Program-made: the position numbers and the translations under genes
The notes under the pieces: model-generated
Told to the model about the DNA's origin: nothing
Database searches by the model: none
Seen by the model: only the letters and a program-made list of their open reading frames with translations
Shown: piece after piece, positions 10,398-27,557 of the stretch
Layout: each line of letters opens with the position of its first letter
How positions within the stretch are numbered: the first letter of the stretch is position 1
IMG/VR virus record: IMGVR_UViG_3300044712_001255
Span: 248,001 to 312,000 of that record
Reading direction: 5' to 3' (one strand)
Origin: a virus
Length of the DNA stretch: 64,000 bases

Positions 10398-10595
10398 CGC
10401 CGGATAGTGGTGGGTTCCACTGCGTAAGTGAATGAAGTAACTATGCTAATGCGACGCTTGGGTTCGAGTCCCAACAGGTAACAAATGGGCATAATGGTAA
10501 CGGTTACTGGTTACGCAAAACAAGTTGACTACGAGGGCAAATGTTAGCGTAATCTACTGGGTTCGATTCCCGATAGTCCGCAAATCACAATGAAT
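10398..10595 (+). ncRNA. atypical tRNA-like region with two T-arms
   Basis: Two good T-arms (TTGGG-TTCGAGT-CCCAA at about 10459-10475 and a TTCGATT loop at about 10561) but no normal cloverleaf around either. An 8-bp stem GGTTACGC/GCGTAATC encloses about 30 bases just before the second T-arm, as if an anticodon or variable arm carried an insertion. Direct and inverted GTAAC/GTTAC repeats lie at 10476-10515. Could be decayed, interrupted or rearranged tRNA genes; I cannot resolve which. Confidence 0.4.
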
Positions 10596-10738: not shown

Positions 10739-10924
10739 CGAGCCGACAATTCCAGTTTCGAGTACTGGACGCACTTGATAACATTGGCGCTTGAAAGGGC
10801 CCATTCACATTGTCTCGAGCACCAGTGTGATGGGCAGCAAGTACGTAAAACGCCTCACGACATCGTAGAAATAGCAATGAAAACAAAGTGTGTAATGCAA
10901 GTGGTAGCATATCGGCGTGTTTTT
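10739..10924 (+). tRNA. candidate permuted tRNA gene (3' half - spacer - 5' half), locus B
   Basis: The 3' half comes first (10739-10777): anticodon-stem strand GCCGA, T-arm CCAGT-TTCGAGT-ACTGG, acceptor strand ACGCACT. A 108-base structured spacer follows, then the 5' half (10886-10924): acceptor strand AGTGTGT, D-arm TGC-AAGTGGTA-GCA, anticodon-stem strand TCGGC. The acceptor strands pair over 7 bp (8 if extended) and the anticodon strands over 5 of 5. The halves abut complete tRNA-Gln genes on both sides. The anticodon cannot be fixed; joining GTGT to CGA would give GTC. Confidence 0.55.
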
Positions 10925-10995: not shown

Positions 10996-11164
10996 CAAGC
11001 CCGAGACCTGGGTTCGAGTCCCAGTTGGACGGTGGCGCTTGAGAGCAAGTCAACGTGCTGATCACACGGAGACATCGCTAGTACGTAAGTCGCCGGCAAT
11101 TGGCTGATCACCTTTTGTCTTGTCCAGTAGTTTAGCGGTCAGAACACGGGCAGTCCTTTCACAT
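10996..11164 (+). tRNA. candidate permuted tRNA gene (3' half - spacer - 5' half), locus A
   Basis: 3' half 10996-11032: anticodon strand GCCCG, variable AGAC, T-arm CTGGG-TTCGAGT-CCCAG, acceptor strand TTGGACG, G73. Spacer 11033-11120. 5' half 11121-11164: acceptor TGTCCAG (7 pairs with two wobbles), D-arm GTTT...GAAC with GG in the loop, anticodon strand CGGGC, which pairs perfectly with GCCCG. The spacer shares TGGCGCTTGA and AGTACGTAA-NN-CGCC with locus B. The anticodon is uncertain; joining AGTC to CAA would give TCC, while an intact CTTTCAC follows in the 5' half. Confidence 0.55.
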
Positions 11165-11551: not shown

Positions 11552-11555
11552 CCAT

Positions 11556-11631
11556 GGCCTTGTCGTCTATGAATGTAGGACGCCACCCCTTAGTCGAGGT
11601 GGAAAAACAGGTGCGAATACTGTCGAGGCCG
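11556..11631 (+). tRNA. atypical Glu-like tRNA with 10-base anticodon loop
   Basis: Acceptor GGCCTTG/CGAGGCC and a Glu-like D-arm (TCGTCTA). Anticodon stem CCACC/GGTGG closes a 10-base loop CCTTAGTCGA, so the anticodon cannot be assigned. T-loop TGCGAAT, G73. Confidence 0.5.
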
Positions 11632-11637
11632 CAAATT

Positions 11638-11710
11638 GATTCTGTCGTCTATGAGTAAGACAATCCCAAATTGGTGGGAATAAAAGCTGATTCGTTGTCA
11701 GCCTGGATCA
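11638..11710 (+). tRNA. atypical tRNA with six-base anticodon loop
   Basis: Acceptor GATTCTG/CTGGATC, stem TCCCA/TGGGA around loop AATTGG, T-arm GCTGA-TTCGTTG-TCAGC. If TGG is the anticodon it would read Pro codons. Confidence 0.5.
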
Positions 11711-11711
11711 C

Positions 11712-13341: not shown

Positions 13342-13505
13342 CAAATCAACAATGACTGCGTTCAAAGTTGATCAATTACGAGTAACTATTAAGCGGTGTA
13401 AATCCGCATTGTATGCAACGTCATCGACAGTTCGCCTCGATCGGGGTGACTGCCCTCTGCACGTTGACGTACTGGCCGGTGAGCCTAATGTGAAAGTAGT
13501 GTCAT
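13342..13505 (+). other. non-coding interval
   Basis: No convincing frame. One GCGG-TGTAAAT-CCGC hairpin and a longer imperfect hairpin near 13428-13454. I cannot assign a function. Confidence 0.25.
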
Positions 13506-19538: not shown

Positions 19539-21179
19539 ATGGCTAAGAAGACTGCTAAGAATGTTGCTCCGGTTCAGATGTCTGAGGCTGACGCAGCGAA
19601 ACTGCGTGAGGCTGCGGCTCGATTCGATCTCAACGTTCACATCATCAATTTCCTCAGCTCTAACGCATTCTATGCTGAGATCTCTCGTCGAGTTCACAAG
19701 ATCAGCACGAAGGACATTCCCACCGCTGCTGTGGCTTGGAACCAGAAGCTCGACAACATCGTGTTGTACTACAACCCGGAATTCATGTGCCAGCACACCC
19801 CAAAGCAGGTGATTGGCATTCTGAAGCACGAATTCAGTCACTTGTTCTACGGACACTTGAACGCTCGTCGGAAGACTCCACACCGTATGTGGAACATCGC
19901 TACCGATCTTGCAATCAATTCGCTGATTGTTTCGAGCGAGCAGAATTCTGCTTCATATTCTAACATCAACAATCCTCAGGCTGTTTTGCCGGAATGCGCA
20001 TTGATTCCCGGCCACCCGGTTTTCTTTGCAGATCTCAAGCGGCCCTTGACGGCTGATGAGAAGGCTGCGCAGCCCATCGCTGCTCTTATCGAGAAGATGA
20101 AGCCGTTGCTCGCTTCTGAGGATTATTTCCAGCAGCTGATGAAGGTCGCAAAGGAACAGCAGAACACTTGCCCGATGTGTGGCGGTTCTGGCAAGATCAA
20201 GGTGAAGTCTGACGCGGGTGGAGATGAGAATAGCTCAGACGGGCGGGACGGCGTCGAGAAGGAAGGCCAGGACAAGGGCGAAAATGACAAGGGTAATGGG
20301 TCATCTCGCGGAGATGATTCTCACGACGAGGGATGCGAGGGCGATGGAAATTGTTCTTGTGGCCACGGCGATAACGAGCCCGGTGGTTGTAGTGGTCCTG
20401 ATGGTGAATATGATTGCCCTTGCTGCAAGGGCGATGGTGAGCTCGGTGACGGCATTGGTTCGATGGACGATCATGGATTTTGGGATGACATCCCGGAAGA
20501 TATGCGTGAATACGTCGAAAATCGTGTGCGTAACGTGATTGAGCGCGCTGTTGAATCCGCCGATCAGAGCTCGAATGGCTGGGGCTATATGCCTGCTTCG
20601 ATTCGTGAGGAGATTCGTCGGTTCGTATCCAAGAAGGTGCCGTGGCGCTCTGTACTCCGGCAGTTCATTGGAGTGCTTCTGCCAGGCGATCGTTCTACCA
20701 GCATCAAGCGCATCAATCGTCGCTATCCGTATATCCATCCCGGTGTGAAGCGTGGTCGCAAGGCTAAGCTTCTCGTCGCAATCGATATGTCTGGTTCTGT
20801 TGGAGAGGAACTTCTCGCAACGTTCTTTGCGGAACTAACCAACTTGGCAAAGAATTGTGAGATCGATGTTGTCCCGTTCGATTGCTCTGCTGAACCTGAA
20901 CATATCGTCAAGTGGCGACGTGGTGGTCCCCCTCCGATGGGTCGGGTGAAGGCCGGTGGTACCAGCTTTGATGCTCCCACTGACCTTGCCAATGATCCTA
21001 AGAACCGCGGTCGTTGGGATGGTCTGCTAATCGTCACAGACGGGATTTGCAACGCTCCCAAGGAAAGTCGGGTACGTCGCGGATGGGTTCTTGGTCCTGG
21101 GTGCAAGCTGCAATTCGACTCGAACGAGCTCCAGGTCTTCGTAGACAATGAGCGACCGATGGTCGGAGCGTGGAGGTGA
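19539..21179 (+). CDS. VWA/metallopeptidase-like protein (DUF2201 type) with DnaJ-like Zn motifs
   Basis: 546 aa. Zinc-protease motif KHEFSHLFYGH with His97, Glu98, His101, followed by WNIATDLAIN. The middle (about 205-310) has CPMCGGSG and CPCCKGDG, the CxxCxGxG repeats of DnaJ zinc fingers, in a Gly/Asp/Glu-rich acidic stretch. The C-terminal domain has a MIDAS motif DMSGSVG and LLIVTDGIC of a von Willebrand A fold. The family often pairs with MoxR-type AAA ATPases; none is seen here. Likely a metal-dependent chaperone- or protease-like factor; substrate unknown. Confidence 0.8.
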   Translation: MAKKTAKNVAPVQMSEADAAKLREAAARFDLNVHIINFLSSNAFYAEISRRVHKISTKDIPTAAVAWNQKLDNIVLYYNPEFMCQHTPKQVIGILKHEFSHLFYGHLNARRKTPHRMWNIATDLAINSLIVSSEQNSASYSNINNPQAVLPECALIPGHPVFFADLKRPLTADEKAAQPIAALIEKMKPLLASEDYFQQLMKVAKEQQNTCPMCGGSGKIKVKSDAGGDENSSDGRDGVEKEGQDKGENDKGNGSSRGDDSHDEGCEGDGNCSCGHGDNEPGGCSGPDGEYDCPCCKGDGELGDGIGSMDDHGFWDDIPEDMREYVENRVRNVIERAVESADQSSNGWGYMPASIREEIRRFVSKKVPWRSVLRQFIGVLLPGDRSTSIKRINRRYPYIHPGVKRGRKAKLLVAIDMSGSVGEELLATFFAELTNLAKNCEIDVVPFDCSAEPEHIVKWRRGGPPPMGRVKAGGTSFDAPTDLANDPKNRGRWDGLLIVTDGICNAPKESRVRRGWVLGPGCKLQFDSNELQVFVDNERPMVGAWR

Positions 21180-23793: not shown

Positions 23794-23887
23794 CTGGGAA
23801 TACGTCATTTTCCTAGTGCAGGGACGCCTGTTGAGTGAGAGTGACGTAGACCATACACTAGAAAAATGATTGATAGAATTGATCGAT

Positions 23888-24466
23888 ATGAAGAAATGTG
23901 ATGCATCTCTTGAAGAGATTCAAAGATTCGTAAAAGAATCAACATGTATTTCGCAAGTTGTCATTGCGCTCAAATTACCGTGTAATGCGAAGTACGCAGA
24001 ATTTGTTCGTCAATTGATCTCACAACACGCACTTGACACATCTCACTTCACACGCAAACGAAAATATGAACGAATCAGAAAAGCTTGTCCTGTTTGTCAA
24101 ACAACGTTTGAAACATACGTAAATCATCCTAAATACAACAAAACAACGTGTTCGTGTGCTTGCGCAAATTCATTCTTTCGTAGTGGAAATAACAACCCAA
24201 ACACAAAGCATGACGAAGATAAGGGAACGTGGATGTACACGTTATGTTGGAAAAATCATGAACATCAATGCGTCATTTGTGGTGAACAAAACATCGTAGC
24301 TGTTCACCATTTTAATGGTAAACATGATGACAATCGACCAGAGAATTTGGTACCTATGTGTCCAACACATCATCAATATTGGCACTCTAAATTTCGATCA
24401 CTCATAGAGGAAAAAGTAAACACATATGTAGAAAATTGGATCTCAACACATCAGAGATTAGTGTAG
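23888..24466 (+). CDS. HNH endonuclease with N-terminal zinc-binding region
   Basis: 192 aa from ATG 23888; an in-frame TTG at 23870 is another start. Cys pairs CPVCQTTF and CSCACANSFF, then CVICGEQNIVAVHHFNG with DNRPENLVPMCPTHHQYWHS: a complete HNH core. The last 15 bases overlap the 5' end of the tRNA-Pro gene at 24452, placing this nuclease gene directly against a tRNA as homing elements often are. Confidence 0.85.
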   Translation: MKKCDASLEEIQRFVKESTCISQVVIALKLPCNAKYAEFVRQLISQHALDTSHFTRKRKYERIRKACPVCQTTFETYVNHPKYNKTTCSCACANSFFRSGNNNPNTKHDEDKGTWMYTLCWKNHEHQCVICGEQNIVAVHHFNGKHDDNRPENLVPMCPTHHQYWHSKFRSLIEEKVNTYVENWISTHQRLV

Positions 24467-25029: not shown

Positions 25030-25102
25030 GAGCGTCTGGTGTAGATGGTTCGCACAATACCCTGAAGACGTATGGGACTCGGTTCGATCCCGAGGGCGCT
25101 CG
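25030..25102 (+). tRNA. tRNA-Phe(GAA), divergent copy
   Basis: Acceptor GAGCGTC/GGCGCTC, GAA in loop CCTGAAGAC with a C-C mismatch closing it, T-arm CTCGG-TTCGATC-CCGAG, G73 (Phe normally has A73). Confidence 0.75.
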
Positions 25103-25106
25103 CAAT

Positions 25107-25178
25107 CCCAAGTTGGTTAAGACGGATGAACGCGTGCCTGAAGAGCACGAGAGGGTGGTTCGATTCCACTGCTTGGGA
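25107..25178 (+). tRNA. tRNA-Phe(GAA)
   Basis: Acceptor CCCAAGT/GCTTGGG, anticodon arm CGTGC-CTGAAGA-GCACG, T-loop TTCGATT, A73. Confidence 0.85.
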
Positions 25179-25197
25179 CAATACGAGCAAGATATGT

Positions 25198-25812
25198 ATG
25201 TTTGCTATGTCTGGAGAGAAGAACGGCGTACGTATCAATTCATTAGCAGACGTTGAGGGACCATCGTCCTCCAACTGGCCGGCAAAGATACGCGCTAGTT
25301 CAGGAGAAAAGCTCAAAAATTGGGCCGCAGTGCTGATGGGCGTCGCGGCGCTTGTGACCGCTGGTGGCACATATATCAAGCCCGCGGATGACACAAAAAC
25401 ACGATCGACTTATGAAGAGATTCGACGCGAGATAGGCGAAATGTCGAAAGACATTAAGAATGTGTCGCAGGACGTTGAGTTCTTATACCAGGTGCGTATC
25501 TCTGATGAGAAACAACGACATGACGCGTTTGACAAAGAAGCAAAGATGCAGGAAGAGGAAGATTCATACATAGAGCAATTCCTTGCAAAGAAAAACGGAT
25601 CAAAAGCCGCGAAGGACTACATTGACAAGCGCAAGCTTGAACGTAAAAAGTTGCGTGTGTTGTTCAAGGTAAGTTCAGACAAACGTGAACTCGCACGCCC
25701 ACCGACTACGAGAAATCTTCCGTCGTATGACGCAGTTCCACAAACTTCGGCGAGTGCAGGCGCACCAAATACCAATGATGGTGGGTCAAGCAGGCCGAGT
25801 GTAAACAAGTAA
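25198..25812 (+). CDS. membrane-anchored coiled-coil protein, 204 aa
   Basis: ATG 25198 chosen since earlier in-frame starts lie inside tRNA-Phe. One helix (NWAAVLMGVAALVTAGGTYI) near residues 41-60, then a charged helix/coiled coil (IRREIGEMSKDIKNVSQDVEF) and a Lys-rich helix, ending in a Pro/Ser/Gly tail. The topology is like an i-spanin, but no outer-membrane partner overlaps it. The stop codon abuts tRNA-Cys with no gap. Confidence 0.55.
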   Translation: MFAMSGEKNGVRINSLADVEGPSSSNWPAKIRASSGEKLKNWAAVLMGVAALVTAGGTYIKPADDTKTRSTYEEIRREIGEMSKDIKNVSQDVEFLYQVRISDEKQRHDAFDKEAKMQEEEDSYIEQFLAKKNGSKAAKDYIDKRKLERKKLRVLFKVSSDKRELARPPTTRNLPSYDAVPQTSASAGAPNTNDGGSSRPSVNK

Positions 25813-25884
25813 CGCCAAGTGGTAGAACGATAATACATCCGGTTGCAACCCGGAAGATTGCAGGTTTAAGTCCTGTCTTGGCGT
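25813..25884 (+). tRNA. tRNA-Cys(GCA)
   Basis: Acceptor CGCCAAG/CTTGGCG, anticodon arm TCCGG-TTGCAAC-CCGGA, T-loop TTTAAGT, T73, the Cys identity base. D-loop lacks the usual GG. Confidence 0.85.
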
Positions 25885-25886
25885 CA

Positions 25887-26043
25887 GATCAAGTAACCAG
25901 ATCTTTTGATCCGATGTTGATAACGTAAGTCAACTTTTTGGCGGAACTGGCAGACGCGCCGGCCTAAGAAACTGGCATGATCATTTGAACAAAATTCTTG
26001 TGATCTATGTGGGTTCAAGTCCCACAAGAGAAGGTGAACGATC
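25887..26043 (+). ncRNA. bracketed tRNA element 1 (outer helix, GTAAC, AGGTGAA)
   Basis: GATC at 25887-25890, two bases, GTAAC (25893-25897); at the far end AGGTGAA (26032-26038), one base, GATC (26040-26043). The bracket encloses the Leu-type tRNA at 25932-26033. The same layout recurs three more times downstream. Confidence 0.45.
25932..26033 (+). tRNA. tRNA-Leu, anticodon AAG or TAA
   Basis: Leu-type D-arm GCGGAACTGGCAGACGC, anticodon stem GCCGG/CTGGC around the nine-base loop CCTAAGAAA, very long variable arm closed by GATCA/TGATC, T-arm GTGGG-TTCAAGT-CCCAC. The acceptor pairing is poor. Confidence 0.6.
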
Positions 26044-26047
26044 ATTT

Positions 26048-26119
26048 GCTGGAGTGGTGATAGTGGTAGCACAGTTGCTTGGTAAGCAACCTGCAGGGGT
26101 TCGATTCCCCTCCCCAGCA
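26048..26119 (+). tRNA. tRNA-Thr(GGT)
   Basis: Acceptor GCTGGAG/CCCCAGC, anticodon arm GTTGC-TTGGTAA-GCAAC, T-arm AGGGG-TTCGATT-CCCCT, A73. Confidence 0.9.
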
Positions 26120-26121
26120 CA

Positions 26122-26212
26122 GAGCGCGGTAACTACGTTCGTTGTCATGGTTTGACAAGGAATTCTTTCAAAAATTCCTATTTTGGTTCGAATCCAAATA
26201 GGTGAAGCGCTC
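26122..26212 (+). ncRNA. bracketed tRNA-like element 2
   Basis: Outer helix GAGCGC/GCGCTC (26122-26127 with 26207-26212), GTAAC at 26129-26133, AGGTGAA at 26200-26206. Inside: arm TTGTC-ATGGTTT-GACAA (GGT or similar anticodon), a variable arm GGAATT/AATTCC and a T-loop TTCGAAT on an extended stem. Confidence 0.5.
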
Positions 26213-26219
26213 AATCTTC

Positions 26220-26318
26220 AAACAAAAGTAACCTCACAAACGAAGTGTTGATAGTGACACAACTTGAGTTTAACAAGAAAAAGTAGGTGCAAGTCCTGCC
26301 GTGAAGGTGAAATTGTTT
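26220..26318 (+). ncRNA. bracketed tRNA-like element 3
   Basis: Outer helix AAACAA/TTGTTT, GTAAC at 26228-26232, AGGTGAA at 26305-26311. Inside: D-arm-like GTGT/ACAC, arm CTTG-AGTTTAA-CAAG (Lys- or Asn-like loop) and a T-arm-like GTAGG-TGCAAGT-CCTGC. ACCTCAC pairs with GTGAAGGT with one bulge as a possible acceptor stem. Confidence 0.5.
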
Positions 26319-26324
26319 CTTTTT

Positions 26325-26421
26325 CAACAAAGTAACTGTTTTCGTGTTGATTGATAATCATCTTAGCTTAAAACTAAGACAATCTGGTGAGACTCCAGAC
26401 TCGAGTTTAGGTGAAATGTTG
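26325..26421 (+). ncRNA. bracketed tRNA-like element 4, Leu(TAA)-type anticodon arm
   Basis: Outer helix CAACA/TGTTG, GTAAC at 26332-26336, AGGTGAA at 26409-26415. Inside: perfect anticodon arm CTTAG-CTTAAAA-CTAAG, identical in form to tRNA-Leu(UAA), and a T-arm-like CTGG-TGAGACT-CCAG. Confidence 0.5.
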
Positions 26422-26424
26422 TAC

Positions 26425-26510
26425 AAACGTGATGAGTAACATACAATGTCAAGGTGACATCCACAAGATGTCATACGTGGTGCAAATCCCGGACGTGAAA
26501 ATCATACGAT
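26425..26510 (+). ncRNA. related element 5, weaker match
   Basis: GTAAC at 26436-26440, a stem ATGTC/GACAT region, T-loop-like CGTGG-TGCAAAT-CCCGG and GTGAAAA before a short CGT.../...ACG outer pairing. Fewer shared bases than its neighbours. Confidence 0.35.
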
Positions 26511-26581
26511 GCTGGTCTAGTATAGTGGCATTACAGCTGTTTCGTAAGCAGCCTACAGGGGTTCGATTCCCTTGACCAGCA
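26511..26581 (+). tRNA. tRNA-Thr(CGT)
   Basis: Acceptor GCTGGTC/GACCAGC, anticodon arm GCTGT-TTCGTAA-GCAGC, T-loop TTCGATT, A73. Confidence 0.92.
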
Positions 26582-26663
26582 CGATACTAAAAACACAGTA
26601 ACGAAAAAAAGCAATAAACGCTTTGAGAGATTATTGCTGAAGTGAAAATGAGAGTAGGTATCG
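26582..26663 (+). ncRNA. hairpin element 6 with outer helix CGATAC/GTATCG
   Basis: Six-bp outer helix, GTAAC at 26598-26602, an 8-bp hairpin AGCAATAA/TTATTGCT and GTGAAAA at about 26642. It lacks a T-arm, so it may be a reduced relative of the preceding elements. Confidence 0.35.
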
Positions 26664-27014: not shown

Positions 27015-27557
27015 ATGGCAAATCAATATTCTAAGTTTAAATGGGAAGATGAACGTCCATTTGAAGATCTGGGCCGAGTAAAACAACGTAACTTCCTAAT
27101 AAAAGAAGCGAATTTTAGTTGTTCTGCTTGCGGCTTCAATAAGTCAAGAGAAGACGGACGATCAATTTTAGAAATTCATCACATCGATGGGAATCATCAA
27201 AATAATGTTCGATCAAATTTGAAAGTGTTATGTCCAAATTGCCATGCCATGACGTTAAAATTCAGATTTTACGGAAAATCACATCTATCGTCAAAAGATC
27301 ATAGAGCTCGAACTATCAATAAAGAGCTCAGAATAAAACGTAAATTAGCGAGAGAACAACGCCAATCAAAAATTAGAGATCAGTTTTGTGAAACGATATT
27401 GTTATGTCATGAGACAAAAGAAATTGATTTCTCTAAATTTGGATGGGTATTACGTCTATCTGAGATGTTTGGCGTAACGCACCAAGCAATTGGTAGACGT
27501 ATAAGAAAATTGATGCCAGAATTCTACAATGATCATTGCTTCAAAAGGAAAGCATAA
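27015..27557 (+). CDS. HNH endonuclease with C-terminal HTH-like tail
   Basis: 180 aa. CSACGFNKS, then ILEIHHIDGNHQNN with RSNLKVLCPNCHAMT: full HNH core. The C-terminal ~50 residues (GWVLRLSEMFGVTHQAIGRRIRKLMPEFY) form a likely DNA-binding HTH as in many phage homing HNH enzymes. Inserted between tRNA-Leu and tRNA-Ile. Confidence 0.9.
   Translation: MANQYSKFKWEDERPFEDLGRVKQRNFLIKEANFSCSACGFNKSREDGRSILEIHHIDGNHQNNVRSNLKVLCPNCHAMTLKFRFYGKSHLSSKDHRARTINKELRIKRKLAREQRQSKIRDQFCETILLCHETKEIDFSKFGWVLRLSEMFGVTHQAIGRRIRKLMPEFYNDHCFKRKA

Follow-up and report, generated by a model that had tools for sequence, protein, structure and literature searches.

The subject of this analysis is a 64-kb window of viral DNA (bases 248001–312000 of the 324-kb phage contig IMGVR_UViG_3300044712_001255, a single assembly-based contig), and in particular a set of tRNA-like segments within its long tRNA array. 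ARAGORN or Rfam predict 48 tRNAs in the window, all on the + strand. In the dense part of the array, from tRNA-Cys(gca) to tRNA-Thr(tgt), lie the bracketed elements E1–E6 (Table 1), in which two conserved motifs, typically AGTAAC and GGTGAA, enclose a core and are themselves enclosed by a short outer helix. The initial annotation had described four consecutive tRNA-like elements of one layout, followed by two weaker relatives. All the motifs and helices that it quoted are found in E1–E4 and the shared layout stands, but the four are not strictly consecutive, since an ordinary tRNA-Thr(ggt) splits E1 from E2. Beyond these four, E5 matches the same strict descriptor as E1–E4, whereas E6, which lies past tRNA-Thr(cgt), has linkers that are too long for it and is a loose fit only.

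Table 1. Bracketed elements of the window and the ordinary tRNAs beside them; bit scores refer to the covariance model built from 11 elements
Feature	Position	Strand	Layout or role	Core and score	Basis
E1	25887..26043	+	outer helix GATC 25887-25890/GATC 26040-26043, A, AGTAAC (25892) ... AGGTGAA (GGTGAA end 26038), C	Leu-like: extra hairpin (GTTGA..TCAAC), D-arm, anticodon-type arm (loop CTAAGAA), long variable arm, T-arm (TTCAAGT)	descriptor; orthologues in other phages
E2	26122..26212	+	outer helix GAGCGC 26122-26127/GCGCTC 26207-26212, GGTAAC variant ... AGGTGAA	D-arm with GG, anticodon-type arm with 8-10-nucleotide loop, T-arm TTCGAAT; 47.7 bits (training member)	descriptor
E3	26220..26318	+	outer helix AAACAA 26220-26225/TTGTTT 26313-26318, AGTAACC ... 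AGGTGAA	D-arm, loop AGTTTAA, T-arm TGCAAGT; 72 bits (training member)	descriptor
E4	26325..26421	+	outer helix CAACA 26325-26329/TGTTG 26417-26421, AGTAACT ... AGGTGAA	D-arm, anticodon-type arm CTTAG-CTTAAAA-CTAAG, T-arm-like TGAGACT; 30.2 bits (outside training set)	descriptor
E5	26429..26505	+	outer helix GTGAT 26429/ATCAT 26505, AGTAAC ... CGTGAA	two hairpins (second: T-loop TGCAAAT); just 22.1 bits	strict descriptor
E6 (weak)	26583..26662	+	GATAC/GTATC, AGTAAC 26597, GTGAA 26642	hairpin without tRNA features	read from sequence
possible further element	13375..13500 (descriptor match 13381-13494)	+	gap between tRNA-Ala(tgc) and tRNA-Ala(cgc); ATTAC, G, AGTAAC ... GTGAA, A, GTAGT	T-type hairpin GCGG-TGTAAAT-CCGC	descriptor
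tRNA-Cys(gca)	25813..25885	+	upstream neighbour of E1, syntenic anchor		ARAGORN; synteny
tRNA-Thr(ggt)	26048..26120	+	ordinary tRNA separating E1 from E2, downstream syntenic anchor		ARAGORN; Rfam 53.2 bits
tRNA-Thr(cgt)	26511..26582	+	ordinary tRNA separating E5 from E6		ARAGORN; Rfam 59.5 bits

The module reads, in order, outer helix, a stacked position, AGUA, ACC or ACU, the tRNA-like core, GGU or AGU, GAA, a stacked position and the other helix strand. The one or two bases that separate helix and motif most plausibly form an additional stacked position, occupied by a Watson–Crick pair or a mismatch. AGUA opposite GAA, with base pairs on either side, is the sequence signature of the bulged-G motif of eukaryotic 5S rRNA loop E and the sarcin-ricin loop. 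Because the flanked AGUA/GAA matches this signature, the bracket would most simply be a bulged-G motif within one long extended acceptor stem; AGUA and GAA are near-invariant and the helices on both sides covary in an alignment of 33 rows. The 3' strand of the E3 outer helix can alternatively pair with the 5' strand of that of E4. In this and other array loci a tRNA core is missing from a small number of bracketed segments (E6, L090 at 10050, L170 at 2558 and L186 at 970), a weak hint that the handle is what stays constant in the family.

The strict descriptor comprises RGTAAC ... GTGAA inside an outer helix of at least four Watson–Crick pairs with linkers of at most two nucleotides (nt). It finds six distinct elements on the + (tRNA) strand of the window and none on the – strand, against an expectation of 0.28 per strand and a maximum of 2 in 60 dinucleotide shuffles. 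The six are E1–E5 and the match at 13381-13494, which may be a chance one. A hairpin form, with both motif strands in reversed order, is not enriched. A scan of IMG/VR with DNA patterns (bracket plus T-loop) returned chance matches in coding DNA together with a set inside long tRNA arrays. With the descriptor, which does not require a T-loop, 17 other array loci yield 16 elements where 1.1 are expected, almost all with a tRNA-like core. In all, the module occurs on 13 contigs, those of the window's phage and of 12 further tRNA-array phages.

The clearest homologue, at 2497-2424 of locus L029, folds alone into an 8-base-pair (bp) outer helix, an open AGUA/GAA motif, a 5-bp ACCUC/GAGGU stem and three arms, with a GAAA tetraloop in place of the anticodon loop and six of seven canonical acceptor pairs. 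About ten further elements outside the training set score 35–62 bits with the covariance model, while ordinary tRNAs reach about 32 bits. Among bacterial genomes there were 35 pattern matches, none of them convincing and the best at the ordinary-tRNA level of 32 bits. Reference phages with long arrays (Tunturi_5, Faust and four huge phages of 595–735 kb) contain no clear element; the one borderline case is a tRNA-Val of Tunturi_5 with AGTAAC...AATGAA. No description of such bracketed elements was found in the open-access literature.

The position of E1 is itself conserved. The gap between tRNA-Cys(gca) and tRNA-Thr(ggt) contains an E1-related element in nine or ten other phage loci. These orthologues are Leu-like with a long variable arm, often have an extra hairpin ahead of the D-arm, and in most cases keep the bracket intact around an outer helix whose sequence is particular to each. 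In the gap at L030 the bracket is clear in its 5' half only, and L095 is rearranged. In most elements the outer helix starts –2 to +1 nt from the end of the upstream tRNA and ends 3–5 nt ahead of the next tRNA. The exceptions are chiefly multi-element gaps such as E2–E5; E3, E4 and the L029 element are 100–200 nt away from a tRNA.

The initial annotation had held that pairing and not sequence is conserved in the outer helices while the inner motifs stay constant, and had asked for covariation in homologues. Both were borne out: the bracket is kept in the 12 other contigs and the helices covary. In the model-fitted alignment of 33 distinct rows, standard pairs occupy 87% of the pair cells and double-sided changes number 104, compared with 38.8 ± 4.8 in shuffles, all six outer-helix pairs taking part. 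The signal is lost when the partner column is shifted by 1–3 positions. The pairs of the bracket covary as well, ACC/GGU being replaced by ACU/AGU (C-G to U-A) or AAC/GUU (C-G to A-U). Since a fitted alignment leans to structure, the outer helix was also tested independently on 36 elements chosen by bracket and T-loop only, some of which are chance matches. At least four Watson–Crick pairs are present in 13 of the 36, as against a mean of 2.1 and a maximum of 9 in 2000 flank permutations. The arrays contain a structured, conserved family of RNAs whose core is tRNA-like and whose acceptor end is extended and capped.

Within the cores the T-loops are nearly always intact and the D-loops mostly retain GG. 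The anticodon-type loops are often unfit for decoding, either through a length of 4, 5, 6, 8 or 9 nt or, at 7 nt, through the lack of U33. Both the 7-nt length and U33 are present in 17 of 43 elements, compared with 272 of 311 ARAGORN tRNAs from the same loci (p = 3e-11), and the majority of the cores, though not all, therefore look unable to decode. Two loop classes recur, each in several phages: YGUCCAA, in which U33 is changed to G, and the Leu-like C[A/C]NAAAA, in which it is A or C.

ARAGORN calls none of E1–E5 a tRNA and at gathering thresholds no Rfam family matches them, so that ordinary cloverleaves with coincidental brackets, the outcome that the initial annotation had named as its refutation, were not encountered. 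The best score with the tRNA family RF00005 is that of E1, 24.3 bits against a cut-off of 29. A canonical tRNA has a 7-bp acceptor stem and a free CCA-type 3' end, whereas here the acceptor runs through AGUA/GAA into the covarying outer helix. The initial annotation had offered an unusual class of tRNA, interrupted or embedded, or else a novel kind of RNA element. The results support an embedded tRNA-like domain in a new RNA element; there is no sign that the bracket is an intron, as an interrupted tRNA would imply.

Among known RNAs, the nearest kind by location are the stable RNAs C and D of phage T4 (species 1 and 2 RNA), which are small, annotated as stable and lie within a phage tRNA cluster. 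RNA C terminates in a perfect T-arm, and the covariance model matches that T-arm alone (9.9 bits); unlike the elements, neither T4 RNA has the AGUA/GAA bracket or a full tRNA core. In the DUF2693 RNA (RF02956), too, a T-loop hairpin precedes GUGA and a tRNA-like part. Its weak overlaps with E1 (23.8 bits) and with E5 plus the next tRNA (21.6 bits) stay below the cut-off of 81.3, and no tRNA core is bracketed in it. Phage tRNAs that evade anticodon nucleases (PMC10264068) likewise come in long arrays with altered anticodon loops, but they translate and have normal acceptor stems, whereas in the elements the acceptor end is capped and a usable anticodon loop is often missing.

Other features of the window were noted as well. 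Open reading frames (ORFs) at 27015-27557 and 23795-24451 resemble HNH-type endonucleases and are inserted in the array, and an ORF of 546 amino acids near the array (19539-21179) has an apparent VWA-type domain (KAKLLVAIDMSGSVGEELL); the TROVE profile has no match on the contig. A search for close relatives through the ORF beside E1 (25072-25812) found none, its single match falling in a tRNA-Phe, and DNA similarity to isolated phages is confined to ordinary tRNA genes. Two tRNA-like genes (10740-10924 and 10997-11164) appear circularly permuted, in the order T-arm, acceptor pairing of 6–7 bp around a long insert, and D-arm, the anticodon stem being made by both ends (GCCGA/TCGGC and GCCCG/CGGGC). 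Their inserts have GGCGCUUGA..AGUACGUAA..CGCC in common. The descriptor for such permuted genes gave no match in eight shuffles, yet tRNA arrays generally yield some chance matches. The segment 24524-24770 resembles a Leu-type tRNA (acceptor GCACACG/CGTGCGC) carrying an insertion of about 160 nt, of which ARAGORN calls the 3' part only, as tRNA-Arg(cct). Further cloverleaf-like segments, unbracketed and amid annotated tRNAs, lie at 11552-11711 and 10399-10595; their T-arms are good and their anticodon loops odd (10, 6 or 8 nt).

On balance we lean towards the view that E1–E5 are members of a new family of small RNAs encoded by phages, tRNA mimics that are capped against maturation and probably bind tRNA-recognising proteins as decoys or scaffolds. 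The structure suggests how this could work. The elbow of a tRNA, made by the D- and T-loops, is kept, usually with an anticodon-type arm, while the acceptor leads via ACC/GGU into the AGUA/GAA motif and a helix of any sequence. As the module occupies most of the gap between two tRNAs, the element would probably be released during processing of its neighbours, and its extended acceptor would shield it from RNase P, from the addition of CCA and from aminoacylation. The kept elbow and loops may then let the capped mimic bind tRNA-recognising proteins, most likely host enzymes of defence that cleave or sense tRNAs, as a decoy. It is known that tRNAs of phages counter the tRNA nucleases of their hosts (PMC10264068), and two further reports describe them as countering tRNA-cleaving host defences (PMC11555353, PMC12409363). 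By analogy with these, a role as decoy or inhibitor is the most economical guess, a Y-RNA-like scaffold or an array-processing module being the alternatives. In the scaffold scenario a protein would hold the conserved handle, as with bacterial Y RNAs. A bolder version, which we put forward tentatively and hold to be possible rather than probable, is an undescribed class of viral non-coding RNA in which a protein reads the conserved handle and interchangeable tRNA-like domains titrate host tRNA-targeting defence enzymes, Y-RNA-like but without Ro60.

Several observations weigh against a family of capped, non-decoding mimics. E3 and E4 lack the D-loop GG. The bulged-G assignment is drawn from the sequence signature, and part of the element set served to train the covariance model. 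The loop classes were assigned by hand curation, and a 7-nt loop with U33 is retained in about 40% of the cores, so that loss of decoding is not universal. Moreover, C33 replaces the near-universal U33 in about 10% of ordinary phage tRNAs (31 of 306 with a 3-nt anticodon). Such C33 tRNAs occur in the arrays of the window and of L090, L096, L103, L104 and L105.

The elements could instead be processing or spacing modules. Core and outer helix would then attract RNase P and the enzymes of 3' processing, or hold them in position, for correct cutting of the long array, and the element would serve no other purpose once excised. Their exact fit into the gaps, with the helix at the 3' end of one tRNA and just ahead of the next, agrees with such a role. 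We nevertheless regard it as unlikely, because many junctions in the same arrays have no spacer or just a few nucleotides, the D-loop, T-loop and bracket are conserved well beyond the needs of a spacer, and E3, E4 and the L029 element lie at a distance from any tRNA. It is more improbable still that the elements are functional tRNAs with an unusual precursor, from which the bracket is removed to give a decoding tRNA. Normal anticodon loops in the 17 cores, the near-canonical acceptor of the L029 element and the fact that ARAGORN calls a few elements outside the window tRNAs would fit this. Against it, many cores are closed at the acceptor by ACC/GGU alone, tetraloops, loops of 5, 6 or 8 nt and loss of U33 predominate, and the arrays already have a near-complete set of ordinary tRNAs. 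That the elements are merely decaying tRNA genes with coincidental bracket motifs is barely credible: the cores do resemble various tRNAs with uneven quality, E5 and E6 being poor, but enrichment, helix covariation and cross-phage synteny contradict decay.

The strongest rival had been that the elements are Y RNAs of the YrlA type (RF02553), which would bind Ro60 of phage or host. Two things prompted this reading: Y RNAs are built as a tRNA mimic on a stem, and a pattern match at L011 shared its contig with Ro60. Elements and Y RNAs alike are non-coding, join a tRNA-like domain to a stem bearing a conserved motif, which in Y RNAs binds protein, and occur in several copies per phage. The comparison set consisted of the YrlA alignment and the Y RNAs beside Ro60 in CcrColossus, Brevundimonas, Xanthomonas, Microcystis and crAss001 phages and contig G008. 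In the elements the arms follow the order D, anticodon, T, whereas in YrlA the T-arm precedes the D-arm, and the stem motif is AGUAAC/GGUGAA rather than the GGUUACUUC/GUUCC of phage Y RNAs. No match to RF02553 rises above chance level. A Ro60 gene (TROVE, PF05731) is absent from 12 of the 13 bracket-bearing contigs, the contig of L192 lying outside the search and some contigs being fragments. The L011 match was dropped as a link, since about 26 kb separate it from the Ro60 gene and it bears no relation to the true Y RNAs next to that gene. AAGUAACC and the Y RNA motif GGUUACUU are reverse complements of each other; this likeness was treated as coincidence because canonical T-loops set the strand of the elements. 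Given the absence of Ro60, the arm order and the stem motif, Y RNA identity was rejected as very unlikely, although the elements possibly work like Y RNAs without being members. The Ro60-encoding phages of L062, L081, L083, L084 and L086 have Y RNA clusters of their own, with GGUUACUUC/GUUCC stems and scores of 28–50 bits, under the Rfam YrlA threshold of 69.

The role of phage tRNA arrays is still debated, and the gaps among their tRNAs have mostly been ignored. In at least 13 phage contigs these gaps hold a conserved RNA family in which the elbow is kept, the anticodon loop altered and the acceptor capped. If the elements are decoys, they would represent an RNA-based counter-defence that tRNA finders mostly miss; if they are borne by a protein, that carrier would be a new partner in RNA handling. 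The covariance model and the syntenic position between tRNA-Cys and tRNA-Thr make both ideas, the decoy and the protein partner, directly testable.
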